A stretch of 56,310 nucleotides of DNA, from the NCBI GenBank assembly GCA_020060235.1, contig JAGVAO010000194.1, forward strand, positions 1 through 56,310, read 5' to 3'. Position 1 is the stretch's first letter, and each line of letters starts with the position of its first letter. The position numbers were made by a program, and so were the translations under genes. This DNA is from Anaerolineales bacterium. GTDB lineage: Bacteria > Chloroflexota > Anaerolineae > Anaerolineales > Villigracilaceae. This document shows, piece by piece, positions 14,101-56,208 of this stretch. Below the pieces are notes generated by a model. That model was not told where the DNA came from and made no database searches. It saw nothing but the letters and a program-made list of their open reading frames with translations.

Positions 14101-14717
14101 TGGACCCGCAAACAACCCTCTTGGATTTTCAGGCAAGCTACCAGCGTGCTGTCGAGAGCAGCAATCTTCAGGAATTGGAAATTTCAGGCGGGCAATATGC
14201 CGAAGCGTTGCTCTTGGCGGGTGAATTTGAACAGGCCTGTGAACCAATCGCCGGCGCCTTGCAAACCGCCATCCAGCGCGAGGATGTTGGTCACCAGTTT
14301 TGGCTTTCTGCTTTGCAGGTCTGGGCCTTGTTTGAAACGCGAAAAGGTCATGCTGAATGGGAGAAGGAATCCGTTGAATGTCGCGCGAATTTGCAAAAAT
14401 TGCTTCCCGAAACCCTGGAGCCATTGGCCAATTTGTACCGACTCTTTTACCTTGCCTGGGAATCGGCTTTGCGCAATGATTTCGCGCAGGCTGTCACCTT
14501 TTTTCAGCAGTACGCCGAAAGCGAAGAGCGGGCAGGCCGTCCTTGGTATTGTGCGCGCGGACTGTCGATGGCGGCCCGTTTTGCGAAGGATAGCGACCCA
14601 ATACTGGCGCGTTATCTCTACCAGGAAACCCTGAACACCTACCAGAACATTGGGGCTACCTGGTATAGCCAAAATGTATTGCGGTTAATCGAAGAGATTG
14701 ACAGGGCTTCTTCCTGA
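11130..14717 (+). CDS. Ser/Thr protein kinase fused to AAA-type ATPase and TPR-like repeats
   Basis: A 1195-residue multidomain regulator. Residues 10-265 are a Hanks-type kinase: glycine loop GKGGMGVVY (17-25), Lys39 in VALK, catalytic HRDLKPEN (125-132), DFG (145-147) and YLAPELLMGG. A second module (about 295-560) is a STAND/AAA-like ATPase with Walker A GEPGIGKTR near 318 and Walker B LLLVLDDVHWAD near 435. The remaining ~600 residues are alpha-helical and rich in Ala/Leu/Glu, resembling TPR repeats. No transmembrane helix or C-terminal LuxR-type HTH is visible, unlike many MalT- or PknK-like relatives. Likely a cytoplasmic signal integrator in which ligand or partner binding at the TPR region controls ATPase and kinase state. 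Its phosphorylation targets are unknown. Confidence 0.88.
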   Translation: MLGQILQNRYRIEEELGKGGMGVVYRAYDITLGRDVALKVVSDNGLGAQGQMRLLSEAKATARLNHNNIVTVYDAGEAGAQPFIVMELVVGESLRERGLDLSQALNYCAQVCDALESAHQHGIIHRDLKPENVLVTESGVAKLMDFGLAHHADGPHLTGDGDIVGTITYLAPELLMGGQPSVQSDLYALGVMLYQFATGRPLFEGGDLIQQLTQHLHVSVVPPSTHNPEIPASLETLILRLLAKKPKDRPASAAEVGDTLRALTQETVDSGLYRLPDNPVLLLNRVVRGRLVTREREMAEISSHWQRTVAGQSGLVLVAGEPGIGKTRLVTELMTRVELERGYAFLGACYAEGNAPYGPFAQIIPELLQSLPSELVETSLNDVVRAELVQLVPSLAARFPGAQANPQIDLQAGQLRAFDCVTQLLSLAASQKPLLLVLDDVHWADSGSLALIRHILRRRSLRILVVMAYRETDLSEMRALNEILSELGRDDGTLRIKLTRLNREQTEELLASMFAEAVSPDFLDVIYRETEGNPFFVEEICKALIDSGQLTRAAGRWQRPSAGDIRVPQNVRTAIESRLSRMPENVQDVLRQASIFGREFEFATLLGLTGQTEDDLIDALEYAEHAQLIYELKDRREGMSGPDVCFAFTHALIPSSIQDGISTLRRQRMHRKALSALMDVRPDAYDRLAYHASQGGDEVRAGEYFFLAGKNALARFAMREAIENLQQAAELEVEPSRQAEIWAGLGEAEFRTGKGKEGIAHLERAIESYLQQECYDKAASTLSLQIHAIWFSLSANQAVETASQWVERVSSWPDGLGVARLCHEIGRVFILAGRESDGLRLIERASSIASRENMLNLELHIEATHFLFKKSDLERITRVEAVIARAEQQDFIGDGLTRAFNNAAIVYYRLARFRDALTAQQKMYAVARKMGTREQELWSLATIGRFQTYLGHLDESGQTFAEMKSLLQSVNLPVLDAMYRGFEPLYRLMWMDPQTTLLDFQASYQRAVESSNLQELEISGGQYAEALLLAGEFEQACEPIAGALQTAIQREDVGHQFWLSALQVWALFETRKGHAEWEKESVECRANLQKLLPETLEPLANLYRLFYLAWESALRNDFAQAVTFFQQYAESEERAGRPWYCARGLSMAARFAKDSDPILARYLYQETLNTYQNIGATWYSQNVLRLIEEIDRASS

Positions 14718-37632: not shown

Positions 37633-39318
37633 TTATTCGCCTAAATCCCACGGCAGTGTGCTGTAAAAATAAATTGTGCTCTGGTAATTCGGCTCTTCGC
37701 TGCTGCCGAGGTTTTCGATGCTGCCAAAGGCCGCCAGCCTGCCGTCGGGGGAGTAGACCGGCCCCCAGGCGGCACTAAAAATCGTTTCTACGGCGGCGGC
37801 GTTTTCTTCCGCGATGAAGAAGGCGCCACCGGTTTTTGTTTCAGGGTCAGAGTATTTGAATAGTAACGGCCAGCCCGAGGGGGTTTTCGACCAGGTCAGG
37901 GCGTAGTAGCCTCCCAGGCCAACGCCGGGAATCTTGCGCTTTTCGGCGCCATCCGGGCTGACGAGGTAGAGACCGTCCGCGCCGGGCAGGGCCAGCCATT
38001 TGCCGTCCGGACTCCAATTGAGCGGTTCGGTGGTGTTGGCGTTTTGCAAGCCTTCGAAAATCTTTGCCAGGCCCGATTGATCGGCCTGCATCACCCAGAC
38101 CTCGCCGGGCGAGTCGTAAGTATCGCCGGATGGGGATGCATAGGCGACTTGGCTGCCGTCTGGCGACCAGGTGTGGCGGCGCGGCTGGCCGATTCCGGGG
38201 GTTTCGAGAACGCGCGCCTGGCTGCCGTCTGGCCTGGAGATGACCAGGACGGTGGCGCTGCTATCGCGCAGCCAATACAAAAGCCACTGCCCGTCGGGTG
38301 ACCAGCGCGGATAATTGGGGCTGAAGCCGGGGCGGTCGGAGCCGAAGCAGGTTTTCTGGCTGCCATCGTTTGCGGCGGTGCAAATTTCCAGGCTGGGAGA
38401 GCCGTCCTGTACCCAGGCCATGCCGTCTGATGCGGGGTTGTAGTAGATGTCGAACAGTTTTTCGGGCAGGTTTTGCGGCTCGAAGAACTCCTGCTGACCC
38501 AGGTTGTAGAATGCCTGGCGCGATTCTTTCCCGGGGGTATAGATGTTGTAATTGAACAGGCTGCTGTCTGCCGACCAGGCGCCGGCTTTCACCAGTCCTT
38601 CGACAGTCAGGCTGTCGCTCAGTTCGGCAACCGGCGCAATTGTTTCGAGGTTTGGCCCGCCCGCCAATCCCCAGGGAATCAATTCTTCGTAGGGGATTTT
38701 CCCCGGTTCGAGCAGGGTTCCGTCGGGCAGCGCCCTGACTTGGCTTTTGGGTTTGGCCTGTTCGCTGCCCTGGTCTGTACGCACATCCACCAGCCCTTCG
38801 ACGACCGTGACGATGGTGCGCCCGTCCTTGTCGACGCGAACGCTAAAGCGCGTGCCGCGCACGGCGGCGGTGGCGTTGGGGGTTTCGACCTCGAAGGTTT
38901 CACCTTCTTGCAGTTCTTCGATGTTGACCCAAATCTGACCTGAATCGAGTTTTATTTTGAGCGTTTGGGGGTCGGGGTGTTCCAGCGTAAAGATGGTGTT
39001 GGGGGCAACCCGCAAGACCCCCTCGCGGGTCAGGAATTGGACAAGGGCTGTTGAAGATTCCCTGGCCCAGACCTCGCCGCCGGGGTAGAGCGGCATTTCG
39101 ACGAGGGCGGCGCTCCAGTCTTCGCCGGGCATGGCGTGGGCCTCGACCCGGTTGATGACCTCGTCCAGCCTGGCCTGGGGCGCTGTTTGGTCGGCAGGGC
39201 TTGCGCTCACGGCATCATTTTGAGGAGCAGGCGCGGGCGCGGATTCGGTTGCGGTAGAGCATGCGCAGGCCGAAAGACCAAATAGCAACACGAGCGTGAA
39301 GGAAAACAGGCGTTTCAT
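37633..39318 (-). CDS. FecR-domain lipoprotein with C-terminal beta-propeller
   Basis: A 561-residue exported lipoprotein: signal peptide with LSAC (Cys18), then a low-complexity Ala/Pro linker. Around residues 95-190 is a FecR domain (GVLRVAPNTIFTLE, TPNATAAVRGTRFSVRVD, VVEGLVDVRT). From about 330 on come TolB/WD40-like propeller blades with repeated WSPDG (PRWSPDGQWLLYW, TWSPDGSQVAYAS, NWSPDGKWLALPG, VYSPDGRLAAFG). It probably senses or scaffolds outside the membrane. Its ATG overlaps the stop of the CHASE2-cyclase gene (ATGA). It converges on the 37011 gene with a four-base gap. Confidence 0.9.
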   Translation of the reverse strand: MKRLFSFTLVLLFGLSACACSTATESAPAPAPQNDAVSASPADQTAPQARLDEVINRVEAHAMPGEDWSAALVEMPLYPGGEVWARESSTALVQFLTREGVLRVAPNTIFTLEHPDPQTLKIKLDSGQIWVNIEELQEGETFEVETPNATAAVRGTRFSVRVDKDGRTIVTVVEGLVDVRTDQGSEQAKPKSQVRALPDGTLLEPGKIPYEELIPWGLAGGPNLETIAPVAELSDSLTVEGLVKAGAWSADSSLFNYNIYTPGKESRQAFYNLGQQEFFEPQNLPEKLFDIYYNPASDGMAWVQDGSPSLEICTAANDGSQKTCFGSDRPGFSPNYPRWSPDGQWLLYWLRDSSATVLVISRPDGSQARVLETPGIGQPRRHTWSPDGSQVAYASPSGDTYDSPGEVWVMQADQSGLAKIFEGLQNANTTEPLNWSPDGKWLALPGADGLYLVSPDGAEKRKIPGVGLGGYYALTWSKTPSGWPLLFKYSDPETKTGGAFFIAEENAAAVETIFSAAWGPVYSPDGRLAAFGSIENLGSSEEPNYQSTIYFYSTLPWDLGE

Positions 39319-41204
39319 AAAACCTCGCTTTCTGCCAGGCCGAGCAGGCGCGCGACGCGCAGGGGTTCCGATTTTCCGCGCGCCTCGAAGGGTGGGATTT
39401 GTTCATCGGTAATGACAAGGTCGCTTACCCGTTCGTACAGGTCAAAGCCGAGCAGGATGGTCATCCCGCCAGGAACAGGCCATTTGCCGGGCGGGCGCGG
39501 AATTTGCATGGCAACCTTGCAGTGCGATTCGATGCGCGCCGCGGCGTTGACGGCGTCGCCCAGCACGGTGTAGTCGAAGCGCCTGCCGCGCCCGATGATG
39601 GCGTCGGTCATTTGTCCGCAGTTTGCGCCAAGGCCCATCTCGAAGGGCGCCTCATCGCGGAGCGGCCAGAGCGTGGTAAGGCGTTCGAAGGCAAGGGCCA
39701 TGCGCATGGCCGCGCGCGCCGCGCTGCGGGCGTGGTTGGGCAGCGGCTCGGGCAGTCCGAAGAGCACCAGCAGTCCGTCGCCAAATGTCCGGTAGATGAC
39801 CCCGCCCTCGGCAAAAACGGCCTGTTCCATCTCGTCCAGATAGGCAGACAGGAAGCGCACCATCTCAGGACTGCGGTCCTGGCGCATCAGCGCTTCGCTG
39901 GCGGCGGTAAACCCGCGAACGTCGCAAAACAGGACGCTTGCCTCGCGCTCGGGTCGTTTGCTGTCGAGCAGGGTTTGCCAGTTGTCGAGCAGGGATTGCA
40001 GGCGTTCGGGCGACATCAGGCCTGAAAATCGCTGGCGCAGCAGGCGTTTGTCTCGTTCGGCAAAAATCATGCGCTCGGCGGTCGAAGCGCCCCCGGTGAG
40101 CAGGGCGGAGGTCAGGGGCGCGGCCAGCGGCAGGACGAAATCGGCGGCAAAGGCAACCTGCCCGGCAGCCAGATAAAGCAGGATGGCAAGGGTGAACAAT
40201 CCCAGTCCAAAGTTGGCGCGCGGCAGGCTGGTCAGCGCCAGGGCCAAAATTCCGGCCAGGGCAACAATCAGCAGGCTTGCCCAGCGCGGCGGATGTTGCA
40301 GCCAGTTTCCGGCAAGCAGGGTGTCTATGGCGTTGGCCTGTATTTCGACGCCGGGCAGTTGGGATTGGGTTGCAAACGGGGCGGGGTGGCGGTCTTGTTC
40401 GATAATTGTCGTGTAGCCAATAAGCACGATTGCATCATTAAAAGTTCCGGGAGGTAGGCTTCCGTCGAGCACGCGGTAGAGCGGCAGGGTGCGGAAGGTG
40501 CCCTCGGGGCCGCGAAAGTTGATGCCCAGGGTTAATCCTGTGTCCAGGTTGGCGCGCGGGACGTTGACCGGCACGCCGTTATACAGCGTGGCGACGGCCA
40601 ACCCAAAGGATGGCAGTTGACCGTCGCTCCAGGGCCAGAGCAAGGTTGCGCGGCGGTAGACCCCATCGGCATCTGCGGCCAGGCTGGTGACCCCGACGGC
40701 GCTGGCGGCTTTCATCAGGGATTCCTGCGGCGGCCTGAAACTGCGCAAAATTCCGATGGGCGATTCATCCTGCTTGAAGTGGGCAACAAGGACGGTATCC
40801 GGCGCGTTTGCCAGCGCAGCGGCCAACGCCTGGTCGCCGTTCTCGTCCCAGCCAGGGGTGTCGAAGGCGATATCCACCCCGATAACACGTGGATTTTCCT
40901 TTGAGATGATTTCGAGCACTTGGGCCCAACGCGCGCGCGGCCAGGCGCGGATGTTTTCGCCGCGCAGGTTGGCAAGCATCTGGAAGGAGTCTTCATCCGC
41001 AACAACCAGGATGATGGGGTTTTGGGGCGATTGCGGGCCGCGCAGCCAGAAGCGCAGGTCAATGGTTGGTCCTTCGACAAAATCGCTCCAGGCGGGCAGG
41101 GCAGCCTGGAGCGAGAAAATCAGTAAAAAGATGAGAACCGGCAGTATCCAGCGCAGGGGCCGGTGTTTTGGAAAAAGCAGTTTGAACCAGCGTTTGTCCC
41201 TCAT
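39315..41204 (-). CDS. CHASE2-domain adenylate/guanylate cyclase
   Basis: A 629-residue transmembrane class III cyclase. Helix 1 (about 18-37) leads into an external CHASE2 sensor (about 40-325, with PRVIGVDIAFDTPGWDENGD and VLIGYTTIIEQDRH). Three further helices (about 330-400) and a short linker lead to the cyclase domain (about 420-600). Metal-binding Asp428 (FCDVRGFTA) and Asp476 (TFGDGLLVLFG) are present, and DYTVLGDAVNAAARIE carries the transition-state Asn and Arg. The position usually held by adenine-binding Lys is Arg (VIYRTFGD), while the Asp of DYT is kept; this leaves specificity uncertain but favours ATP. It is cotranscribed with the FecR lipoprotein. Confidence 0.92.
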   Translation of the reverse strand: MRDKRWFKLLFPKHRPLRWILPVLIFLLIFSLQAALPAWSDFVEGPTIDLRFWLRGPQSPQNPIILVVADEDSFQMLANLRGENIRAWPRARWAQVLEIISKENPRVIGVDIAFDTPGWDENGDQALAAALANAPDTVLVAHFKQDESPIGILRSFRPPQESLMKAASAVGVTSLAADADGVYRRATLLWPWSDGQLPSFGLAVATLYNGVPVNVPRANLDTGLTLGINFRGPEGTFRTLPLYRVLDGSLPPGTFNDAIVLIGYTTIIEQDRHPAPFATQSQLPGVEIQANAIDTLLAGNWLQHPPRWASLLIVALAGILALALTSLPRANFGLGLFTLAILLYLAAGQVAFAADFVLPLAAPLTSALLTGGASTAERMIFAERDKRLLRQRFSGLMSPERLQSLLDNWQTLLDSKRPEREASVLFCDVRGFTAASEALMRQDRSPEMVRFLSAYLDEMEQAVFAEGGVIYRTFGDGLLVLFGLPEPLPNHARSAARAAMRMALAFERLTTLWPLRDEAPFEMGLGANCGQMTDAIIGRGRRFDYTVLGDAVNAAARIESHCKVAMQIPRPPGKWPVPGGMTILLGFDLYERVSDLVITDEQIPPFEARGKSEPLRVARLLGLAESEVL

Positions 41205-42657: not shown

Positions 42658-43839
42658 ATGACAAAAACCAGCCTGGTCGAAGCGGTGCTAAAGGAGGCTT
42701 GTGCGCTCAGTGATGCCTGTTGGGCGGCGCGGGTTTCTTACAGCCTGAATGGGTGGAGTTTGCTCGAATCGCACCGGCTGACGAAGAAGCGCGAGGCCTG
42801 CCTGCGCGATTTCCTGGCCGACAAAGCCAACTCGGCCTGGTTGGGCGGCGCGCTTTCCGGCGGGCGTTCACGCTCGCGGGCCTGCGACCTCGACCCGGAT
42901 TGCCGCAAGGTTTTTATTTTTCCGTCTTATGCGGGGGAGAACTGGCTGTTTGTGGTCAGCGCGGCTGAAAACCTGTCCAAAGCCTCGCAGCAGGTCTGGC
43001 GGCTGGCGGCGATGGCAATTCCATCAGGGGATGATGCTGCCGACCAGACGCACCAACTGAAACAGGCCGTCACCGAAATGGAAGAAATCCAGCAGGAACT
43101 CAGGGCGCGCATTGCTGCCCAGCGCGAGGCCGAATCGCGGCTGGTGCAGGCCGCCAAACTGGCGGCTGTCGGTGAAATGGCGGCAGGCATAGCCCACGAA
43201 TTGAACAATCCGCTGACCTCGGTGGTCGGCTTTACTGAATTGAGTATCGAATCGCTGTCGATAGAATCACCCCTGCGCCATGACCTCGAACTGGTGTTGC
43301 GCGAGGCCAACCGCGCCCGCAGCGTGGTGCGCCGCCTGCTCGACTTCGCCCGCCAGCGCGAAGTGGTTCGCACGCGCGGCGATATTAACGAAATTGTGGA
43401 CGAAGTAGTTGTCCTGACCAAGCACCTGCTGTTGACCAGCGGGGTCGAACTGCGCATGAAACTCAAACCCGGCCTGCCCTGGGTGCTGATTGACCGCAAC
43501 CAAATCAAACAGGTGTTACTGAATTTGGTAAATAATGCCCTGTACGCCATGCCGAACGGTGGGATGATGGCGATTGAGACCTGGGAGCAGGAGCGCCACG
43601 GCGCGCCGTTTGTAGCCCTGGCGGTGCGTGACAGCGGAGAGGGCATTTCGCCCCAAAACCTTGAGCGCATTTTCGAGCCGTTCTTTACCACCCGTGGCGA
43701 CCAGGGCGGCACCGGCCTGGGGCTTTCGGTGACTTATGGCATCGTCACCGAACACGGCGGCGTCATTGAGGTCGAGAGCCAGGTTAACAGCGGCTCGAGT
43801 TTTCTCGTCTATTTCCCGTTGCAGGAGCAGGAGGTATGA
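42658..43839 (+). CDS. NtrB-type sensor histidine kinase
   Basis: A 393-residue cytoplasmic kinase. The N-terminal ~120 residues look like a diverged GAF-type sensor containing several Cys (EACALSDACW, SRACDLDPDC). A coiled coil (about 130-165) leads to His180 in AAGIAHELNNPL, then LNLVNNALYAMPNGG, DSGEGISP and GGTGLGLSVTYGIVTEHGG. The clustered Cys could bind a metal or sense redox; this is speculation from sequence alone. Its stop overlaps the next gene's start by four bases. Confidence 0.9.
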   Translation: MTKTSLVEAVLKEACALSDACWAARVSYSLNGWSLLESHRLTKKREACLRDFLADKANSAWLGGALSGGRSRSRACDLDPDCRKVFIFPSYAGENWLFVVSAAENLSKASQQVWRLAAMAIPSGDDAADQTHQLKQAVTEMEEIQQELRARIAAQREAESRLVQAAKLAAVGEMAAGIAHELNNPLTSVVGFTELSIESLSIESPLRHDLELVLREANRARSVVRRLLDFARQREVVRTRGDINEIVDEVVVLTKHLLLTSGVELRMKLKPGLPWVLIDRNQIKQVLLNLVNNALYAMPNGGMMAIETWEQERHGAPFVALAVRDSGEGISPQNLERIFEPFFTTRGDQGGTGLGLSVTYGIVTEHGGVIEVESQVNSGSSFLVYFPLQEQEV

Positions 43840-45434
43840 GCCAGGTGCGCGTAATGGTGGTCGACGACGAGCCGGGTGTTGCCCTGCTATGCGAAAGGCT
43901 TTTGTCTGGCGCAGAGTTTTTGTCCCGCTCTTCGACCGACCCGCGCGCTGCCCTTGAGTTGCTCAAAAGCGAACCTTTCGATTTGCTGCTGGTCGATATT
44001 CGCATGCCCGAAATCAGCGGCTTCGATGTCATCCAACAGGCGCGCGAGTTGCAGCCAGAAATCGCCATCCTGGCAATCACCGGTTTCGGGACGGTCGAGA
44101 CGGCCATCCAGGCCCTGCGGCGCGGGGTCGATGGGTTGCTGCTCAAACCTTTCCAAAAGGATGAACTGCTCGAAGCCGTCCAGCAGGCCCTTTCCGACCG
44201 CCAGAAAAAACAGGACGTGGCCCGGATGCAGGCCCTGCGTCCGCTTTTCAGCGTGACCGAAACCCTGTTGTCGGAAACGAACCCCGAAAACCTGCAAACC
44301 CTTATCCTGGATACCGTTTCGAATCAATTTTCCTGCGCCAATGTGGCGCTTTACCGGGTATCGGAGCGCGACAACCAGGTTGCGCTGCTGGCCGGGCGGG
44401 GTAAAACCCCGGCGTCTGGCGTAATCGATTCCGGGGGCGGCATTGTCCAACGGGCTGCCGCAGTGGAGCAGCCCGTCTGGGGGGCGGTCGGGCAGGCGGG
44501 GGAGAAAGCCATCCAGCGTGAGTTGAAATCGCTTGGGCTGGGCAGCGTAATGGCGGTCCCGTCCGCATCGATGAACATGCGCTCGGTCTTGTTTGCGGCC
44601 CGCGACGTGGGCGAGCCTCCTTTCCGCGAAGCCGACCTGGATATGTTCCAAATCCTGGCGCGTCAGGCGACCATTGCGATGGATAACGCCAACCTGTACG
44701 GTGAACTGCGCGCCTATGTGCGCCGCGTCGAAGAGTCGCAGCGCGCCCTGGTGCAATCTGAAAAGTTGGCGGCGGCGGGCCGCCTGACCGCCTCGATTGC
44801 GCACGAGGTCAACAATCCGCTGCAATCGGTGCGCAATTGCCTGCACCTGGCAATGCGCGAAGACCTGCCGCCTGAGAGCCGTAAAAATTACATCGACCTG
44901 ACCATGCAGGAGGTCGAGCGCCTGATGATGACGGTCGAGCGCATGTTGGATTTCTACCGTCCGAGTGTGGAGTTCAAACCGGTCAATATTCTTGACCTGT
45001 TGGAGCATGTACTCAACCTGCTTGGGGCGCAATTGCGCAGCCGTAACATTGTCGTCACAACGGCCTGGCCCGCCAAACTGCCCAGCGTACAGGCTATCCG
45101 AAACCAGGTCGAGCAGGTGTTCATTAACCTGGTCTTGAATGCTTTCGATGCAATGCCGGAGGGGGGCGAGTTATGGATTGATATTACGCAAAAACGGAAG
45201 ATGATACAAATAACTTTCCAAGATAGCGGGCCAGGCGTGCCTGACGAAATGCGCGAGACGATTTTCGAGCCGTTCATCAGCACAAAAAACGGAACCGGCC
45301 TGGGCCTTTCGGTCAGTTACGATATTATCACTGCGCACGGAGGCCGCCTTGACCTGCTTCCGGGCAAAAACGCTCAGGGCGCAACCTTTCGGGTAATGCT
45401 CCCAATCAAAGATGCCAAGGATGAGAAACCATGA
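43836..45434 (+). CDS. Receiver-GAF-histidine kinase (inverted hybrid)
   Basis: A 532-residue protein with order REC (1-125, Asp54 in LLVDIRMPEI), GAF (about 145-290, ending FQILARQATIAMDNANLY), coiled coil, HisKA with His323 (TASIAHEVNNPLQSV), and ATPase (NLVLNAFDAMPEGG, DSGPGVPD, NGTGLGLSVSYDIITAHGG). A receiver placed ahead of a kinase suggests that phosphorylation by the upstream kinase, or by another, gates this kinase's activity. It overlaps both neighbours by four bases. No membrane helix. Confidence 0.92.
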   Translation: MSQVRVMVVDDEPGVALLCERLLSGAEFLSRSSTDPRAALELLKSEPFDLLLVDIRMPEISGFDVIQQARELQPEIAILAITGFGTVETAIQALRRGVDGLLLKPFQKDELLEAVQQALSDRQKKQDVARMQALRPLFSVTETLLSETNPENLQTLILDTVSNQFSCANVALYRVSERDNQVALLAGRGKTPASGVIDSGGGIVQRAAAVEQPVWGAVGQAGEKAIQRELKSLGLGSVMAVPSASMNMRSVLFAARDVGEPPFREADLDMFQILARQATIAMDNANLYGELRAYVRRVEESQRALVQSEKLAAAGRLTASIAHEVNNPLQSVRNCLHLAMREDLPPESRKNYIDLTMQEVERLMMTVERMLDFYRPSVEFKPVNILDLLEHVLNLLGAQLRSRNIVVTTAWPAKLPSVQAIRNQVEQVFINLVLNAFDAMPEGGELWIDITQKRKMIQITFQDSGPGVPDEMRETIFEPFISTKNGTGLGLSVSYDIITAHGGRLDLLPGKNAQGATFRVMLPIKDAKDEKP

Positions 45435-46156
45435 AAACAAATATCCTGATAGTTGACGATGAACCGGTTGCGCGACAGTCTTTGGGCGATATTTTACAAC
45501 TCGAAGGCTATGCGGTTACGGCAGTCGCAAGCGGCGAGGCAGCTGTCGAGCACCTGCGCAATTACGCAGTTGACCTGATGATAGTCGACTTGAAGATGCC
45601 CGGCATGAGTGGACTCGACCTCGTGCAGGTTACCAGTCAACTCGCGCCCGATGCACAGATTATCCTGCTGACGGCCTATGGTTCGATGGAATCGGCGGTC
45701 GAGGCCCTGCGTCAGCGTGTGCATGATTACCTGCTCAAACCGGCTTCCCCCAACCAGATAATCGCCAGCGTCAAAAAAGGGCTGGAGCGGCGGGCGGTGC
45801 GTCTGGCCGAACAGGCCGAATCGCAGGCTGTCGCCGTCTCCTTGTTCAGAACTGCCGACGGGGTCGAAATCGACCTGATGCGCCGCACGGTTTCGGCCAA
45901 CGGCAAACTCGAAAACCTGACCCCGGCGGAGGGGCATTTGCTCAAGGTCTTTATCGAAAATCCCGGCAAGGTGTTCAGCCACCGCGAATTGGTTTTGCTC
46001 GTTCAGGGATATGATGTTTCGCAGCGCGAAGCCCAGGAAATTTTGCGCCCGCTGGTCAGCCGGCTGCGCCACAAACTCGAAGTCTTTCCCGGTTTATACG
46101 AAAGAATCATCAGCGTGCGCGGCACGGGATATGTATTCGAAAACGAGAAAAACTAA
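45431..46156 (+). CDS. OmpR/PhoB-type response regulator
   Basis: A 241-residue regulator: receiver with DDEP, Asp53 (MIVDLKMPGMSG), LLTAYGSMESA and LLKPASP, closer to NtrC-type receivers, then a linker and a winged-helix DNA-binding domain (about 148-238; LTPAEGHLLKVFIENPGKVF, RPLVSRLRHKLE, RGTGYVFE). It is the DNA-binding output of the operon. Its targets, possibly its own operon, are not visible. The stop overlaps the end of the opposite EamA gene by four bases. Confidence 0.93.
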   Translation: MKTNILIVDDEPVARQSLGDILQLEGYAVTAVASGEAAVEHLRNYAVDLMIVDLKMPGMSGLDLVQVTSQLAPDAQIILLTAYGSMESAVEALRQRVHDYLLKPASPNQIIASVKKGLERRAVRLAEQAESQAVAVSLFRTADGVEIDLMRRTVSANGKLENLTPAEGHLLKVFIENPGKVFSHRELVLLVQGYDVSQREAQEILRPLVSRLRHKLEVFPGLYERIISVRGTGYVFENEKN

Positions 46157-47103
46157 TCTTCCAGGTTCCAGGGAATGGGGGCAATTTGCGGCGGATGAAT
46201 CCAGGCCAGCCAGCCTCCTTTGGGCCGCTGCAAATTGGGTTTCTCGAAGGCAGCCAGAAGCAGGGTGATGCTCAGGATGGCCGCCCCGCCCCATTGAACA
46301 ATGGTCAGGCTCTCATTGAGCAGGATGTGACTGACAACGATGGTAACGAAGATTTCTGATAGACCCAACAGGGCGGTTTGCACACCGCCTATTTTTTTTA
46401 TGCCCAGAAAGAGCGTAAAGCGTGATGTGAACGTGACCAGGGTCAGCAGGATGACGGGCAGCCAGGATGCTTCCCCGGCGGCAGGCAGGCTGCGGTCGAA
46501 AATCAGGTATGCGGGCAGGGTGACCAGGCTCATCGCCAGCAGGGTGTATAGGGTGACAGTCGGAGCGGGGATTTCGTACAGCACGCGCTGGTTAATGGGG
46601 ATATGTAGGGCGTATAGGATGGCCGAGAAAATCATCATCAGCGTGGCGGGGATGGGGATGTTTGCCCCGCTGGGGTTAATCAGCAAAAAAACAGCCGCAA
46701 GCGCCAGGGCCATGCGCAGCACGGTCAGACGGCTGATGGGCTGTTTGTCCAGTATCGAGAAGAGTGCGACGAAGACGGGGTAGAGGGCGTACAGCAATTG
46801 CCCAACACTGGCGGGTAGTTCGCCGAGGGCCATGTAGTAAAAGAGCGAACCGAACCCGTTAATGGCTCCCGCCAAAAAGCAACCCGCCAGACCAACCGGA
46901 AAGATATAAAGAAATTGCCGCCTGAAGAGCAGCAAGATGAGGAAAATCATCGTGGCGGCCAGGCCGGTTCGCAGGGCCACTGTCAGCAGGGAACTGAATC
47001 CGGACAGGATGGCCCAGCGGCCAAAGACGGGCGCCAAGCCCAACAGGAAAGCGGATGACAGGGCTGCGAAGATGCCTATCCCCTGCCTGTTACTGGCTGT
47101 CAT
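46153..47103 (-). CDS. EamA-family (DMT) transporter
   Basis: A 316-residue membrane protein with ten helices in two EamA repeats (first ending LAAVFLLINPSG, second ending LLLAAFEKP). Typical features are the early GLAPVFGRWAI, LYALYPVFVALFSI at the end of the first repeat, and LGLSEIFVTIVVSHILLNE in the second. Members export metabolites such as amino acids, nucleotides or drugs; substrate unknown. The start at 47103 has AAAGGGAA upstream; an in-frame start 18 codons earlier is Cys/His-rich and unlikely. The next gene, threonine synthase, makes amino acid export a mild possibility only. Confidence 0.88.
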   Translation of the reverse strand: MTASNRQGIGIFAALSSAFLLGLAPVFGRWAILSGFSSLLTVALRTGLAATMIFLILLLFRRQFLYIFPVGLAGCFLAGAINGFGSLFYYMALGELPASVGQLLYALYPVFVALFSILDKQPISRLTVLRMALALAAVFLLINPSGANIPIPATLMMIFSAILYALHIPINQRVLYEIPAPTVTLYTLLAMSLVTLPAYLIFDRSLPAAGEASWLPVILLTLVTFTSRFTLFLGIKKIGGVQTALLGLSEIFVTIVVSHILLNESLTIVQWGGAAILSITLLLAAFEKPNLQRPKGGWLAWIHPPQIAPIPWNLED

Positions 47104-47212
47104 GCAATTCCCTTTCCTGCAACCTGTCCGGTCATCGGCGCAATGTTCATGCGGCAATTAAAACGGCAAAACAAGGTCGCCAGTCTTTCTAATGCATTGC
47201 GAAAACGTTTGA

Positions 47213-48892
47213 TTATCGAATCAGGGACTTAACTTCATCCAGGAATTCATCGCTCATGAAGTCCCCTTTTTGCATCAGGGCCTGGATTTGTCCTTTGAGC
47301 AGGTTCTTTTCGTCCTGGGTCAGTTCCTTGGCTGTCGAGACAATTACGGGGATGTGAACCGTATCGGGATTGTTCTTCATTGCATCCAGCACGGCAAAGC
47401 CGTCCATTTCCGGCATCATCAGGTCGAGAATCAACAGGTCGGGGCGTTCACGGTTGACCAGCTCGAGCGCCTCGCGCCCGTTGGTGGCCTCGAAGATGGT
47501 GTACTCGCCCTGTGATTGCAGGATGCGCCGAATCAGCCGCCGGGCATCGGGGGTGTCGTCGGCAATTGCGACGCGCGGAAAGCGGTCAGGCGCGACCCGG
47601 CTGAGGGCGGCCAGCAGACCTTCGCCTTCCTTGGGGGCCGGTTCCGCCTGGGCGGTTTCGCTTTCCTGCGGCAAGACGACATTTCGCGCCCAGCCCGAAC
47701 CAAGAACAAGCGGTTCGGCGGGCATCGTGTGACCCGTGCAGTTGACCACGACGGTATCGGTCGGCTTGATGACCCCGGCGCGAATCAGTTTGAACAACCC
47801 GGCGAAAGCGGCGGCAGCGGCAGGTTCAGCCGAGACACCTTCCATTTTTGCCAGCACATGCATGGCGCGGAAGGCCTCCTCGTCGGTGACGCTTTCGAAC
47901 AGTCCCTTATTTTCCTTGAATTCCTCGCGCAGCAAGGGGTAGGCGCGGCCCGGCGTGCCGGTGGCGAGGGTCTCAATGTGGGTTTTGGGGCTGATAACGG
48001 CGTTGGCTTCCTCAAGGTTTTGTTTCCAGGCATGCACCATTGGGGCGCAGCCATCAGCCTGGATGGCGGCAATCGATGGAATTTCATTGATGAAACCCAT
48101 GCGTTTCATTTCGTGGAAGCCCTTGCTGACGCCAATCGGGCCAAGCCCGCCGCTAATGGCCTGGATGTACCAGGTGGGCGTGCGCCACAGGCTGCCGTCG
48201 GTTGCCGGGCCGAGTTGTTCGGTCAGTTGTTCGGCAATTTCGTAGGCAATGGTTTTCATCCCCTCGACCGAGGTGATGGTGCGCGCGCCCATGTCATGAT
48301 ACAGGCCGCGCTGTTCGGCGAACTCAGCGGCAATTTTTTTGACCTGGTCATACGAGCCGGTAACTTTGACAACCTGGCTGCCGTACAGGGCAATTTCGCG
48401 CATTTTGACGGCGGGCACGAGGCTGGTGACAAAGGCCCATAACTTAATCCCGGCCCGGGCGGCAAAGGCCGAATAGGCGATGGCGACATTACCGGTCGAG
48501 GCGGCGACCATCTCGGTGATTCCGGCTTCTTTCAGCGCCGCAATCGTCACCGCAGCCTGGCGGTCTTTGAAAGACGCGCTCGGCCCCTGCCGCTCGTCTT
48601 TGATGAAAATGTTGGGGCAGCCGAGCATCAATCCCAGGTTGACCGCCTGGATGAGCGGTGTTCCGCCTTCGCCCATGCGCAGGCTGGTAACAGGTTTTTG
48701 GACAGGCAACAGTTCCTGGTAGCGCCACAGACCAAACGGACGTTTTTCCAGCGCATCAGGGAGGATTTTTGCAATATTGTCGTAATCGTAAATGGCCCTG
48801 CGCCACTGGCTTTTGCAGTTGGGGCAGTTGAATTCACTGGGATGATAGTGGTTGGTATGACCGCAATCAATGCACTCGATAAGACAGGCCAT
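47213..48892 (-). CDS. thrC: Threonine synthase fused to a C-terminal response-regulator receiver
   Basis: A 559-residue protein. The N-terminal zinc-ribbon-like part has CIDCG and CPNC (Cys7, 10, 23, 26). The PLP enzyme domain (about 40-405) has PLP-lysine Lys109 in SASFKDRQAA, AASTGNVAIAYSAFAARAG, the glycine loop ISGGLGPIGVSKG and NCTGHTMPAEP, as in threonine synthases (O-phosphohomoserine to threonine). After a Glu/Pro linker (about 408-440) a full receiver follows: VAIADDTPDARR, Asp490 in LLILDLMMPEMDG, VIVSTAKEL and MQKGDF. The reading frame is unbroken, so this is a true fusion, not a frameshift. Phosphorylation of Asp490 would be expected to control or localise the enzyme; that is inference. 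Confidence 0.92.
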   Translation of the reverse strand: MACLIECIDCGHTNHYHPSEFNCPNCKSQWRRAIYDYDNIAKILPDALEKRPFGLWRYQELLPVQKPVTSLRMGEGGTPLIQAVNLGLMLGCPNIFIKDERQGPSASFKDRQAAVTIAALKEAGITEMVAASTGNVAIAYSAFAARAGIKLWAFVTSLVPAVKMREIALYGSQVVKVTGSYDQVKKIAAEFAEQRGLYHDMGARTITSVEGMKTIAYEIAEQLTEQLGPATDGSLWRTPTWYIQAISGGLGPIGVSKGFHEMKRMGFINEIPSIAAIQADGCAPMVHAWKQNLEEANAVISPKTHIETLATGTPGRAYPLLREEFKENKGLFESVTDEEAFRAMHVLAKMEGVSAEPAAAAAFAGLFKLIRAGVIKPTDTVVVNCTGHTMPAEPLVLGSGWARNVVLPQESETAQAEPAPKEGEGLLAALSRVAPDRFPRVAIADDTPDARRLIRRILQSQGEYTIFEATNGREALELVNRERPDLLILDLMMPEMDGFAVLDAMKNNPDTVHIPVIVSTAKELTQDEKNLLKGQIQALMQKGDFMSDEFLDEVKSLIR

Positions 48893-48923: not shown

Positions 48924-48951
48924 AAAAAAGGCGCACCGGGTTGGCGCGCCT
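48924..48951 (-). terminator. Rho-independent terminator downstream of the hybrid kinase gene
   Basis: Read on the minus strand, AGGCGCGCC pairs with GGTGCGCCT (one mismatch) around a five-base loop, directly followed by six Ts. It lies seven bases after the kinase stop. The stem ends the kinase transcript, so the threonine-synthase fusion downstream probably needs its own promoter or readthrough. Confidence 0.75.
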
Positions 48952-51900: not shown

Positions 51901-53631
51901 CAGGCCGTTGGTCAGCAGGATGATTTCGCGTCCGTCGCGAGTCAGGTTGCGATTTTCATAGTCAATCATGCGCTCCTGCTTGTCGAGACGTTCGGCCATG
52001 AACGGTGCAACACGTTCGGACTCGTAGGCTGGCATGAAATCGGTGGGGCTTTTGCCGTACATTTCTTCCGGTTTGTAGCCCAACACGTCGAGTACCTTGT
52101 CTGAACAGTAGGTATATTTTCCTTCCAGGTTGATTTCCCATACCCAGTCGGCAGAGGCGAGCGCCACATCGCGGAAGCGGGTTTCGGAAATTTGAATGTC
52201 CTGATACAACCGCGCATTCTGGATGGCAATCGATACCTGCCCGGCCATGGCGGTCAGCAGGTCTCTGTGACGTTCGTTATACATGTTGGGCGTGGTTGCG
52301 CTCTGGACAACGATTGCGCCGATGACCTCCTGGCCCAGCACCATCGGCACGCCCAGCCACGATTCGGGTATCGAGTCGTCACCCAATAGCAGGATTTCAA
52401 CGCCCAATTCCTCGGCGCGTTCCTTGACCCGGTCTTGGAGCAAAACCGGTTCCCGGCTGCGGAGCACCCTGGCGGTCAGTCCGTTTCCGATGCTGGTTTT
52501 TTCAATCGGGCTTGGCTGTCCATCAAAATAGATGGACGCAAAAGTCATCTCATCGGTTTCAGGGTGAAAGATGCTGACAAAAAAGTCTGTCGAATCCATC
52601 AGCCTGCTCGCATACCTGTGAACCGCTTCGGCAATTTCTTCGACCGAGAGCAGCGACGAGATTTCACGCGCCATTTCGTTGAGAACGGCCAGTTCCTCGT
52701 TTTGGGCCTCGGTTTGCTGGAAGAGCTGCGCATTTTGCAGGGCGATGGCCGCCTGACTGGCAACCGCCGAGAGCAGGTCTCGCTCTTGTTCGGTGTAGAG
52801 ATAGGGGGTTTCAGTGCTTTGGACGACGATTGCGCCCAGGGTTTTTGCGCCGATGACGAGCGGGATTCCGAGCCATGAAACGGCCGGCCTGGCGTTGCCC
52901 AGCGGGACAAATTCGATGCCGAGTTCCTGCATCTGGGCGGTTACATCCCCGTTGAGCAGGACTGGTCTGCGAGCGCGCAGGACGTAATCGGTAAGCCCGC
53001 TGCCCATCTTCCTATCGGGGTATTCAATGCGCTCGTTATTTACGGTAACAACCGGGAAAGAGAGTGTATCTTTCTCACTGTCAAGAATGGCAACAAAGAA
53101 ACTGGAAGTATTAATCAGTTGGCTGGTGTACTTATATGCGCTTTCGGCAACCTGTTGAACGTCCAATTGGGTCGCCAGTTCGCGGCCCATTTCGTTCAAT
53201 ATTTCCAGGTTGTTGTTTTGCCGCTGGGTTTGTTGGAAAAGTTTTGCGTTTTGTAGTGCCAGGGTCAATTGGTCGACGACATCGCGCAAGAGGGCCTGTT
53301 CTTCATTGTTCCACTTGCGGTCTTTTCCGTCAACAATTTCGATGCTGCTCCAGGTGTCGCCATCGGTGAACGGGATGGCAATGCTGGAAATGTTGTCGGC
53401 AGCAGATTCGGCAATCGTGACTGTTTTCCTGTCGAGGCCTTCCGGGAGCGTGAGCCTGCCTGTGTGCTTGTTGATTTGGCGCGGCGTTTCAGGCGATGCC
53501 TGTCCTGCCGACGGCGCTCGTTTGCGCGACGGTGTTTTTGCACCTGTGCCCGATGTTTCTTCGCTTTCAGGGCTGGCAATATCTGTAAATATTTTATTGA
53601 GCCGATTGCGAATCTTTTTGTTGTCTGACAT
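48958..53631 (-). CDS. Multi-GAF/PAS hybrid histidine kinase with two receivers
   Basis: A 1557-residue cytoplasmic protein with no membrane helix. Order, approximate: a partial GAF-like segment (70-135), GAF (150-305), GAF (320-480), PAS (490-605), GAF (620-760), PAS (770-880), GAF (900-1050), HisKA with His1079 (ANMSHELRTPLNSI), ATPase (LNLIANAAKFTEEG, DTGPGIAPED, GGTGLGLSICQRLVELHGG), then two receivers (CIDDDQQIINLY with TLDIMMPGVDG; IIDDSADDLRLIE with ILDLFMPDLDG). The first 60 residues are basic and disordered-looking (RKRAPSAGQASPET). Its start overlaps the end of parA by 38 bases, so the two are coupled. It probably integrates several small-molecule or redox inputs. Confidence 0.93.
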   Translation of the reverse strand: MSDNKKIRNRLNKIFTDIASPESEETSGTGAKTPSRKRAPSAGQASPETPRQINKHTGRLTLPEGLDRKTVTIAESAADNISSIAIPFTDGDTWSSIEIVDGKDRKWNNEEQALLRDVVDQLTLALQNAKLFQQTQRQNNNLEILNEMGRELATQLDVQQVAESAYKYTSQLINTSSFFVAILDSEKDTLSFPVVTVNNERIEYPDRKMGSGLTDYVLRARRPVLLNGDVTAQMQELGIEFVPLGNARPAVSWLGIPLVIGAKTLGAIVVQSTETPYLYTEQERDLLSAVASQAAIALQNAQLFQQTEAQNEELAVLNEMAREISSLLSVEEIAEAVHRYASRLMDSTDFFVSIFHPETDEMTFASIYFDGQPSPIEKTSIGNGLTARVLRSREPVLLQDRVKERAEELGVEILLLGDDSIPESWLGVPMVLGQEVIGAIVVQSATTPNMYNERHRDLLTAMAGQVSIAIQNARLYQDIQISETRFRDVALASADWVWEINLEGKYTYCSDKVLDVLGYKPEEMYGKSPTDFMPAYESERVAPFMAERLDKQERMIDYENRNLTRDGREIILLTNGLPILDDAGTMIGYRGVNKDITAQRLDEAIEEVIAEIVRAGVEAENVEKALELIHQGILRIVPAKNIYFSLYDRENEIISYPFKVDEKAPNPWRSGPPIHNLTHYVIRNDQPLFLTEEGINELNQKGEIDLVGEPAMQWMGIPLKTKEVIGMFATQTYDDSLTLTNDHFETLGRLAPQIATVVEKMLAEEALGKSEAELRALFNSMNDVIVVYNKEGRYVRIAPTNPSRLLMPAEELLGKTVKDVLSPDLQEIFLETIQRALQSKETIQVEYPLSIGGQKFWFDASVSQLSENEVFWVARDVTERKSAEEALRRQNEYLATATEVGRLITSTLDMPTLFNRTANLLRNRFGYYHVSIFTVEENGFNAVLREATGDAGEEMKNRQHSLAVGSKSIIGYVTGNGKTLVVNNTAIDPIHRPNPLLPETRAEAGIPLKIGSRVIGALDIQAREVGAFLDEDIAVLETLADQIAVALDNARSYELAQQAVNEMRELDRIKSQFLANMSHELRTPLNSIIGFSRVILKGIDGPINEQQHQDLSAIYNSGQHLLNLINDVLDLSKIEAGKMELAIEEINIVDTINSVMSTAAGLVKDKQVRLEKEIASNIPAVRGDAMRIRQVLLNLIANAAKFTEEGVITIEAKPHTTSTGLQEVLISVHDTGPGIAPEDQSKLFQAFSQVDSSPTRKSGGTGLGLSICQRLVELHGGRIGVHSVVNEGSTFYFTIPVYHQESQQENGKEGKIILCIDDDQQIINLYERYLKPQGYQVVPLMNPANAKDTIKRLRPYAVTLDIMMPGVDGWQVLAEIKADPEIRDVPVIVCSIVEEEEKGFSLGASDYLVKPILQDELLLSLNRLNGDGMIRDVLIIDDSADDLRLIERIIAEKEAYHPILAQGGQKGWELISQKKPHAIILDLFMPDLDGFTILERLKTSADLRDIPVLVISGADLKDEEKAKLSNLGKTMLQKGMLEQDELFSTLDKALKRLDAKH

Positions 53632-54385
53632 ATTCCATTAACTCCTCGGCAAGAACCCGGTATTGTTGCGCGCCCCGGCTTTTGGGCCGGTATTGAGAAA
53701 TCGGCACGCCGACAATCGGGCTTTCACGCAGGCGGGTATCAATTTCTACCACCGATGAAAATAACCCGGAACCAAATGTTTGCTGTAATTGTTCGCGAAT
53801 GACCCTGTGGGTGCGGTTGCGCTGGTCCAGAAGGGTTATCAGGATGCGATAGGCAAGGTCGGGATTGGTTTCCTTGCGCACCCTTCTAATCATGACCATC
53901 ATATCGCGCAGGGCGTAGGCCGAAAAATATTCGGCCTGGGTGGGGATAATCAACAGGTCAGACGCAGTCAGGGCGTTCATGGTTACCGCCCCCATGGATG
54001 GCGGGCAGTCGAAAATCACATAGTCGTAATCATCCAGCCCGGCCTGGTGAAGGGCCTCGCGCAGAATGAACTGGTAGTTAATACGCACTGGCAGGAAGTG
54101 CTCTGCATCTGACATTCGCGCGCCGCAGGGAACAATCGACATGTTTTCGGTATTGGTTTTGTTGATGGCGTCCCTGAGAGGCAGGCCTTCGAGCAAAATC
54201 AGGCTGCTGTTCTGGGTTACGTTGCCGGGTTCGATGCTGTTTGCCAGGCTCAGGTTGGCCTGGGGGTCAAGGTCGATGAGCAAGACATGTTTTCCCAGTT
54301 CGGCCAGCGACGCGCCGAGCGAGAAGGTTGTGGTGGTCTTGGCGACCCCGCCTTTTTCGTTGGATACCGCAATTGTGTAAGTCAT
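53594..54385 (-). CDS. ParA/Soj-family ATPase
   Basis: A 263-residue ATPase with the deviant Walker A KGGVAKTTT (11-19), Walker A' LLIDLDPQANLS and Walker B YVIFDCPPSMG. Such ATPases form gradients on the nucleoid and place plasmids, chromosomes, chemoreceptor arrays or enzyme complexes. No ParB, parS-like repeat or replication gene is near it, so partitioning of DNA is not supported. Its position between a membrane GAF sensor and a hybrid kinase, coupled by overlap to the latter, points to positioning of a sensory complex. Separated from the sensor gene by 35 bases. Confidence 0.92.
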   Translation of the reverse strand: MTYTIAVSNEKGGVAKTTTTFSLGASLAELGKHVLLIDLDPQANLSLANSIEPGNVTQNSSLILLEGLPLRDAINKTNTENMSIVPCGARMSDAEHFLPVRINYQFILREALHQAGLDDYDYVIFDCPPSMGAVTMNALTASDLLIIPTQAEYFSAYALRDMMVMIRRVRKETNPDLAYRILITLLDQRNRTHRVIREQLQQTFGSGLFSSVVEIDTRLRESPIVGVPISQYRPKSRGAQQYRVLAEELMEYVRQQKDSQSAQ

Positions 54386-54420: not shown

Positions 54421-56208
54421 TTAACTCTCTGCCTGGTTGCCGGTTGCGCTGTCGGGTTCGTTTTCCATTCCCTTGACGCGGACATCGCGCACATTGAGCG
54501 CGTTCTTGATTTCTGACAGGGCGATGGCAAGCATTTCCTGCGGGTCATTGGTGCTTCTAATCTTGGTGGTGATGGTCGATACCGCCCTTTCGCGCTCGGC
54601 GCGCCGGGTGGTTTCTTCAAAAAGCCGCGCGTTTTCTGCCGAGATAGCCAGGCGGTCGGTGACTGACTGCACCAGTTCGATTTCGTCCTTGCTCCAGGCT
54701 TTCTCGCCCGGCTGGCGGATGTTGACAATACCCAAAATCTCGCCGCGTAATTTAATTGGGACAACCAGCGAAGACTTGTCGTTTTCATCCTGATGAACCA
54801 TCACTGCGCCCGATTCGAGGGCCTGCTCGAACTCCGGCTTCTGGAGAGGCTCAACAAGTGGGGCGGCGCCGGTGATTTTATATTGGAAGCCGGAAAACTT
54901 TTCGTCGCTTGCAATGCGGCCCCATTCAGAGCGCAGGTATTGGCGGTAAATCGTTTCCGATTCGCCCAGGGATTTCTGGGTATCTTCGAGCAGGCGCACG
55001 TTCTCAATCGCAATGGCAATCTGGTCTGCGAGCGCGGCAAAGACCTCGCTATCTTCCCTGGAGAAGGCGTTCGCTTCTTTACTCTGGATGTCGATGACGC
55101 CAATCACCTGGTTCGAAATTTTTAGCGCGGCGGCCATCTCCGAGCGGGTTTCCGGCAGGTCGGGGTTGTTGAAAAAGATGGCGTCGTCGCCTGTGTCCAG
55201 CGCTACGCGGGTGCTTCCGGTATAGGCTACGTTGCCGACGATGCCTGTCTCGCCGATTTTCAGTCGATGGTTGCGCGCCAGCATCTTCTTGCCGCCTTCG
55301 CTGTTGGCTGCGCTGAGAATGGTGTAGTGGTTGGCTTCGTCGTTTAGGAAGATGCCGACATGGTAATAGCCCAATTGCTCGCTCACCAGTTGGGCGAGGG
55401 TGTCGAAAAGGGTTTCAAGGTCCTGGATATTGGCGACATAACGCGCCACGTCAGCAATGGTCTGGAATTGTTTGGCGCGTCTCTGGTTGGTTCTCACTTG
55501 TTCGGTGAGTTGTTCCGATTTTGTTTCCAGTTCGGCAGTGCGCTCATTGATGCGCTCTTCCAGCTCTTGTTGCAGCCTGATGAGTTCGGTATTAATTTCC
55601 TTTTGCTGCTCGACGCTCTTTTGGGCAAAGGTAACGCTTTGATTTAGCCGGTTCAAAAGAGTAATTTGAATTACAGCGGTAACCAGGGGCGCAACAATGC
55701 CAATCAAGACAATGTCGGTCAGGTCTGTTAATTCGCTAAACCGGTTAACCAATATGCCCTGCGCCTCAAGGATGCCCATGAGAACAGTTGTGACCGATAC
55801 CAATGCCGCAAAAATCAAGGCTCCCTTTGCGCCCATTGTAAGGCTGCCGAAAATAATAACAACAATAAAGATTACGACTGAAGAGTCGTGCAGACCGTTT
55901 GCGCGAGCTGCGATGACGGAGACGGCAATCAGGATTGCCAGCGGTGAGATGAAACGGGCCGGGAAGGTGGTTCCCCTGAGCAATAATGCGCCGCTGATAT
56001 TGAGCAATATCCAGAGCACACCAACGATTCCGGCCTGGATGAACAGGCCCTGCGTAATTGTAAATATACCTACTGCAATGGTTGCGACATAAATTACCAA
56101 CGTAATGTTGCGTAACATGCGCAGGTTGGCAGGGCTGTCCTGCTCGACCTCGGATTTTTCCGTGAAGGTTTTTACCAGCCAGGCCTGAATAAGCGACAAA
56201 AATTGCAT
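54421..56208 (-). CDS. Membrane-anchored double-GAF sensor protein without kinase domain
   Basis: A 595-residue protein. Residues about 32-190 form six hydrophobic helices. A long coiled coil (about 195-250, EINTELIRLQQELEERI) follows. Then GAF 1 (about 260-400; GYYHVGIFLNDEANHY, ADQIAIAIENVRLLEDT) and GAF 2 (about 420-560, VVPIKLRGEILGIVNIR, DRLAISAENARLFEE), and a short helical tail. There is no HisKA, ATPase, GGDEF or cyclase domain, so the signal must pass to a partner, most simply the hybrid kinase two genes on. AAAGG precedes ATG. Confidence 0.9.
   Translation of the reverse strand: MQFLSLIQAWLVKTFTEKSEVEQDSPANLRMLRNITLVIYVATIAVGIFTITQGLFIQAGIVGVLWILLNISGALLLRGTTFPARFISPLAILIAVSVIAARANGLHDSSVVIFIVVIIFGSLTMGAKGALIFAALVSVTTVLMGILEAQGILVNRFSELTDLTDIVLIGIVAPLVTAVIQITLLNRLNQSVTFAQKSVEQQKEINTELIRLQQELEERINERTAELETKSEQLTEQVRTNQRRAKQFQTIADVARYVANIQDLETLFDTLAQLVSEQLGYYHVGIFLNDEANHYTILSAANSEGGKKMLARNHRLKIGETGIVGNVAYTGSTRVALDTGDDAIFFNNPDLPETRSEMAAALKISNQVIGVIDIQSKEANAFSREDSEVFAALADQIAIAIENVRLLEDTQKSLGESETIYRQYLRSEWGRIASDEKFSGFQYKITGAAPLVEPLQKPEFEQALESGAVMVHQDENDKSSLVVPIKLRGEILGIVNIRQPGEKAWSKDEIELVQSVTDRLAISAENARLFEETTRRAERERAVSTITTKIRSTNDPQEMLAIALSEIKNALNVRDVRVKGMENEPDSATGNQAES

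Follow-up and report, generated by a model that had tools for sequence, protein, structure and literature searches.

A threonine synthase (ThrC)-like PLP enzyme is joined, in a single open reading frame of an Anaerolineales bacterium, to a complete response-regulator receiver, and this fusion, which we named PALP-REC, is ancient, conserved and of single origin. The gene lies in the 56,310-nucleotide stretch of DNA that was analysed (the window), and the same fusion was found in 84 non-redundant proteins. Most response regulators work through DNA, c-di-GMP or protein contacts. The reading that we favour, and hold to be likely without being secure, is that PALP-REC is a response regulator with an enzyme as its output: it would be driven by a kinase, have a remodelled substrate pocket, be distinct from the housekeeping ThrC and make a product that is probably exported by an EamA transporter.

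The features of the locus are collected in Table 1. The PALP-REC frame starts with ATG and contains no internal stop codon, and the matches to PF00291 and PF00072 (the latter at residues 441-542, E 1.7e-21, in Pfam) are both far over their gathering scores. This architecture, computed directly, agrees with the initial annotation, which had described an in-frame join of a PLP enzyme to a complete receiver and had correctly placed Lys109 (in SFKDR), the ISGGLGPIGVSKG loop (SGGLGP), Asp490 and Lys542; the position of Asp446 was likewise correct. The N-terminal four-Cys knuckle is probably a zinc ribbon, and would then bind zinc.

Table 1. Coordinates of PALP-REC, its parts and its neighbours in the window.
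Feature	Coordinates	Strand	Remarks
Fused protein PALP-REC, 559 aa	47213..48892	(-)	ThrC-like PLP enzyme (PALP) with C-terminal receiver
Four-Cys knuckle (C7, C10, C23, C26), N-terminal	48803..48892	(-)	Cys columns at least 97% conserved (n=84 fused proteins)
PALP domain, residues 72-387	47732..48679	(-)	PF00291, E 2.6e-62
PLP Schiff-base lysine Lys109 (in SFKDR)	48566..48568	(-)	Kept in 84/84 fused proteins
Residues 202-214, GARTITSVEGMKT	48251..48289	(-)	Align to ThrC phosphohomoserine motif NSVNPYRIEGQKT
Variable linker, residues 396-438, between PALP and receiver	47579..47707	(-)	Low conservation
Receiver domain, residues 439-559	47216..47578	(-)	PF00072 (Response_reg)
Predicted phospho-acceptor Asp490 (in LILDLMMP)	47423..47425	(-)	84/84 fused proteins
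Receiver lysine Lys542, then Gly not Pro (QKG)	47267..47269	(-)	QKG also in terminal receiver of neighbouring kinase
Hybrid histidine kinase, 1557 aa	48958..53631	(-)	GAF/PAS sensors, HisKA, HATPase_c, two receivers
Terminator-like hairpin, then T run	48929..48951	(-)	Kinase/PALP-REC gap of 65 nt; z -3.67
ParA/MinD-like ATPase	53594..54385	(-)	Conserved in block; gene overlapped by kinase gene
GAF-domain protein, N-terminal hydrophobic region	54421..56208	(-)	Upstream in block
EamA/DMT-family transporter	46153..47157	(-)	Directly downstream of PALP-REC
Two-component genes: histidine kinase, REC-GAF-histidine kinase, REC-winged-helix regulator	42658..46156	(+)	Conserved next door in Anaerolineales

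The initial annotation had also identified the enzyme as a threonine synthase and proposed that amino acid synthesis is thereby placed under phosphorelay control. PALP-REC could indeed be a true threonine synthase, a second and signal-controlled isozyme beside the housekeeping ThrC, with phosphorylation tuning threonine flux; it has the PALP fold and keeps the PLP residues, and its best solved-structure matches are all threonine synthases. However, no equivalog cut-off of the curated ThrC models was passed by PALP-REC, which scored 256.6 bits (cut-off 303) with its best NCBIfam model, PRK08197, a threonine synthase model whose top rank itself fits an isozyme, and 146.8 bits (cut-off 167.1) with TIGR00260. 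A divergent fused member, L186, was narrowly under the latter (166.9 vs 167.1). The ThrC motif NSxNPxR-EGQK (SLNSLR-EGQK in the plant enzyme) has its Arg in all five solved ThrC sequences aligned, and we take this residue to be the one that holds the substrate phosphate in Thermus threonine synthase. At the Asn, Arg and Gln of this motif PALP-REC has G202, S/A208 and M212; in the fused family position 208 is Ser, Ala or another residue but never Arg (84/84), with Gly202 in all 84 proteins and Met212 in 83 of them.

The same genome also encodes a separate ThrC, L003, which reaches 303.8 bits with TIGR00260 (cut-off 167.1) and is divergently adjacent to ThrB, a protein that passes its own model; this ThrC-ThrB pair was again computed directly. 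In a census of 80 of the 82 fusion-bearing genomes, 60 had the housekeeping ThrC of the L003 type and 12 more a ThrC of the PRK08197 type, and the eight others had only weaker unfused relatives (34-38% identity); ThrC without the fusion was found in 21 genomes. As most fusion-bearing genomes have a separate ThrC, the fusion is an accessory gene in most of them. Two more ThrC-like paralogues are encoded in the window's genome (L002 and L004, on G000 contigs C107 and C197). Both are devoid of the signature Arg and under the cut-offs of their best-matching ThrC models, with L002 just passing TIGR00260 (174 vs 167.1).

The label of threonine synthase was thus not borne out, given the missed cut-offs, the lost Arg and the separate ThrC, and nor was the proposal of phosphorelay control over amino acid synthesis, the cell having its own ThrC next to ThrB. 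The EamA family includes the threonine/homoserine exporter RhtA, which the window's EamA protein may resemble, and this would suit an isozyme making threonine; set against the evidence above and a very long stem branch of the fused clade, we nevertheless regard a second threonine synthase as unlikely. PALP-REC is probably not the normal threonine synthase of the cell, and appears instead to be a neofunctionalised, ThrC-derived enzyme with a remodelled pocket, whose substrate would be altered.

The search of Chloroflexota genomes suggested by the initial annotation found both the fusion and its kinase neighbourhood to be conserved: besides the 84 fused relatives, the gene just upstream, in the same orientation, encodes a histidine kinase in 48 of 55 distinct loci, and one lies no more than three genes away, on one side or the other, in 50. 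The hybrid kinase next to PALP-REC, which had been put forward as the phosphate donor, is a real one, with several GAF/PAS domains, and the H-box SHELRTP is present in 48 of 49 upstream kinases. In a tree, the fused receiver clusters with the terminal receivers of the kinases (SH-aLRT 96) and shares with them a K-G pair in most cases, as opposed to the usual K-P. The distances of kinase H-box regions and receivers correlate (r 0.65, 0/1000 permutations), mostly via common ancestry, and the mirror-tree signal left after correction for this is weak (partial r 0.21). From conservation and gene neighbourhood, the hybrid kinase is the probable phosphate donor to PALP-REC, and the predicted phospho-control by it is well supported by inference.

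No kinase was found within three genes in the remaining five loci (L152, L153, L172, L173 and L189). The copies L152, L153 and L204, 76-79% identical to that of the window, lie in an unrelated metal-enzyme neighbourhood without a kinase, which indicates that PALP-REC need not depend on an adjacent one. The neighbours of these three copies include Mrp/NifU, CGGC, ARMT1-like, radical SAM, AIRS, and molybdenum hydroxylase or peptide-deformylase-like genes, and each of the three genomes holds another fusion copy elsewhere. At L065:6475-10738 the hybrid kinase is split into two genes, encoding a receiver-free kinase and a REC-REC protein.

In the window, the genes for the GAF protein, the ParA-like ATPase, the kinase, PALP-REC and EamA are all on one strand, and the same order (GAF proteins, ParA, hybrid kinase, PALP-REC, EamA) is seen repeatedly in Anaerolineales. 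A second branch has a kinase devoid of receivers and, after PALP-REC, a gene for a lone receiver; in a third branch one PALP carries two receivers. PALP proteins of about 690-810 aa are found at L177, L181-L184, L188 and L202, usually followed by a lone receiver gene; two tandem receivers were seen in all those checked, namely L177, L181-L184 and L188. In two genomes an unfused PALP gene follows PALP-REC and the lone receiver (L189:6803-8029 and L190:1-1166), that of L189 being a PRK08197-type threonine synthase by NCBIfam. Elsewhere in the window, a CHASE2 sensor is fused to an adenylate/guanylate cyclase domain (39315-41204, minus strand), and a protein of 1195 aa (11130-14717, plus strand) joins a Ser/Thr protein kinase to an AAA_16 ATPase and may include a TPR region.

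The strong terminator-like hairpin between the kinase and PALP-REC genes would count against a simple operon in the window, and might set different levels for the two proteins. It is absent in the close relative L061, and other, unrelated hairpins occupy the same gap in L063, L069, L168, L181-L183 and L188.

As for the kinase, the position of the EamA gene was computed directly: it is present in 32 of 55 loci, every one of them with a kinase nearby. A more specific version of our reading, which we put forward tentatively and would sooner doubt than assert, is that the neofunctionalised PALP-REC makes an amino acid other than threonine, or a related small molecule, that is exported by EamA, so that the hybrid kinase controls secretion via an enzyme and not via transcription.

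In the mechanism that we propose, a single fusion event in a Chloroflexota ancestor would have joined a ThrC-type PLP enzyme to a receiver akin to the terminal one of the hybrid kinase. The kinase would read an internal signal through its GAF/PAS domains and autophosphorylate the His of its H-box, and the phosphate would pass to Asp490 either directly or via the kinase's own receivers. The phosphorylated receiver could then alter the activity of the PLP enzyme by shifting its packing or dimerisation. In the main branch, the product or a related compound would probably leave the cell through the EamA transporter. Phosphotransfer, allosteric coupling, the altered substrate and export are the steps of this scheme that we infer.

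A different role for the PLP domain, as a ligand sensor, has also to be weighed: an amino acid bound to PLP would govern phosphorylation or dephosphorylation of the receiver, and the protein would be a signal integrator or a phosphate sink instead of a regulator with an enzyme output. PLP-binding sensors of the MocR type exist, so the idea has precedent, and it would suit both the signalling-rich loci, with their additional lone receivers, and the branches with two receivers on one PALP. The conservation of the active sites, computed directly, makes it a poor prospect. Lys109, Asp446 and Asp490 are invariant in all 84 non-redundant fused proteins, and 63 of the 79 invariant PALP columns are common to bona fide ThrC, the PLP machinery being retained; the full catalytic set is kept, beyond what ligand binding needs, and the transporter gene that lies downstream in 32 loci points to a metabolic role. 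The other 16 columns are clade-specific, and those beside PLP or substrate motifs include Q112, G202, M212, S247, P252 and T389.

That the receiver serves structure or oligomerisation only, like the CheY-like domain fused to the extended ('wing') PLP decarboxylases (PMC8503589), is very improbable. The set of receiver hallmarks is complete in PALP-REC, with the acidic pair (D/E445-D446 in the fused proteins), the phospho-acceptor Asp490, Thr or Ser at position 520 and Lys542, which is kept in all 83 fused rows extending that far, and most loci have a histidine kinase next to the fusion. Invariance of both sites argues against a dead enzyme as well as against a purely structural receiver. It is the pattern expected from selection on PLP catalysis or binding together with phosphorylation, both of them predicted functions. 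An AlphaFold model from a 15-row alignment was poor (pLDDT 58.5, pTM 0.42) and gave no docking evidence.

The fused proteins form a discrete subfamily, as judged from a gap in identity and length: across 400 genomes of the phylum, all matches of at least 48% identity were of fused length (about 550-730 aa), whereas all those of at most 37% were unfused (415-455 aa). Searched with the PALP part, 82 of the order's 151 genomes gave a strong match, and the matching open frame was almost always of fused length. We obtained this distribution from genomes within Chloroflexota and covered other phyla by an exact-peptide contig scan, whose listed matches were mainly receiver-only. Among the matches listed, the named full-length ones were Chloroflexota MAGs, mostly Anaerolineales, and the plasmid ones were ThrC-like genes of 31-34% identity. 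An assembly or sequencing error, conceivable for a draft genome of 279 contigs, was rejected as having a negligible chance, since the same uninterrupted fusion is shared by 84 distinct proteins, including some from the single-contig genomes G011, G103 and G437.

The single origin was computed directly from a tree of 83 PALP domains. The fused proteins group together there in a single clade (SH-aLRT 100), whose stem measures about 3 changes per site; such long branches call for caution on the exact relations to the unfused kinds. The sole apparently unfused row inside the clade, L072, stops at a contig edge.

PALP-REC has in common with ThrC (TIGR00260/PRK08197; 2d1f, 2zsj, 1uim, 6cgq, 1e5x) the PLP fold type II, the SFKDR lysine, the glycine loop and the EPAsAA region, and shares the Cys knuckle with PRK08197-type ThrC. 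It differs from ThrC in its fused receiver, the loss of NSxNPxR, its scores below cut-off, its location away from thrB and an identity of at most 37% to the unfused kinds.

Response regulators with enzymatic output were reportedly noted as a class by Galperin. Metabolic enzymes are acknowledged as receiver outputs, and archaeal examples include RadA/KaiC-like NTPases, thioredoxin reductase and pyruvate phosphate dikinase (PMC5847659). As in these regulators, the receiver of PALP-REC is joined to a metabolic-type enzyme, which would thereby be under signal control; unlike them, PALP-REC belongs to the PLP amino-acid enzymes, in the ThrC family, and has a C-terminal receiver and a probable cognate kinase in the block. 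The extended ADC/ODC/LDC decarboxylases, acid-response enzymes described with a CheY-like domain and without mention of phosphorylation (PMC8503589), are also PLP amino-acid enzymes with a fused receiver-like domain, but they have the aspartate-aminotransferase fold and an N-terminal receiver. The fold type II PALP and C-terminal receiver exclude PALP-REC from that group.

A moonlighting cyanobacterial ThrC carries out threonine deamination as well as synthesis (PMC12172450). PALP-REC is likewise a divergent ThrC type, the altered activity being that of the cyanobacterial enzyme, which still uses O-phosphohomoserine, as PALP-REC probably does not, and is described without a receiver. In a paper on a Synechocystis regulator, thrC appears solely as a transcript (PMC7090099). 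We found no description of a ThrC-receiver fusion in the open-access papers searched, an earlier mention in reviews being possible, and the architecture is visible in public databases, even if undescribed. Since enzymatic-output regulators and PLP-receiver decarboxylases are already known, the fusion is a variant within a known class.

A large set of genes that are likely annotated as threonine synthase falls outside the evidence for that label. PALP-REC defines a widely kept Chloroflexota family in which a PLP amino-acid enzyme would be under a receiver, with a probable kinase in the same block, and it offers an unusually clean test of metabolic phospho-control. As the fusion and the neighbouring kinase suggest, signals may directly turn an enzyme on or off in these bacteria.
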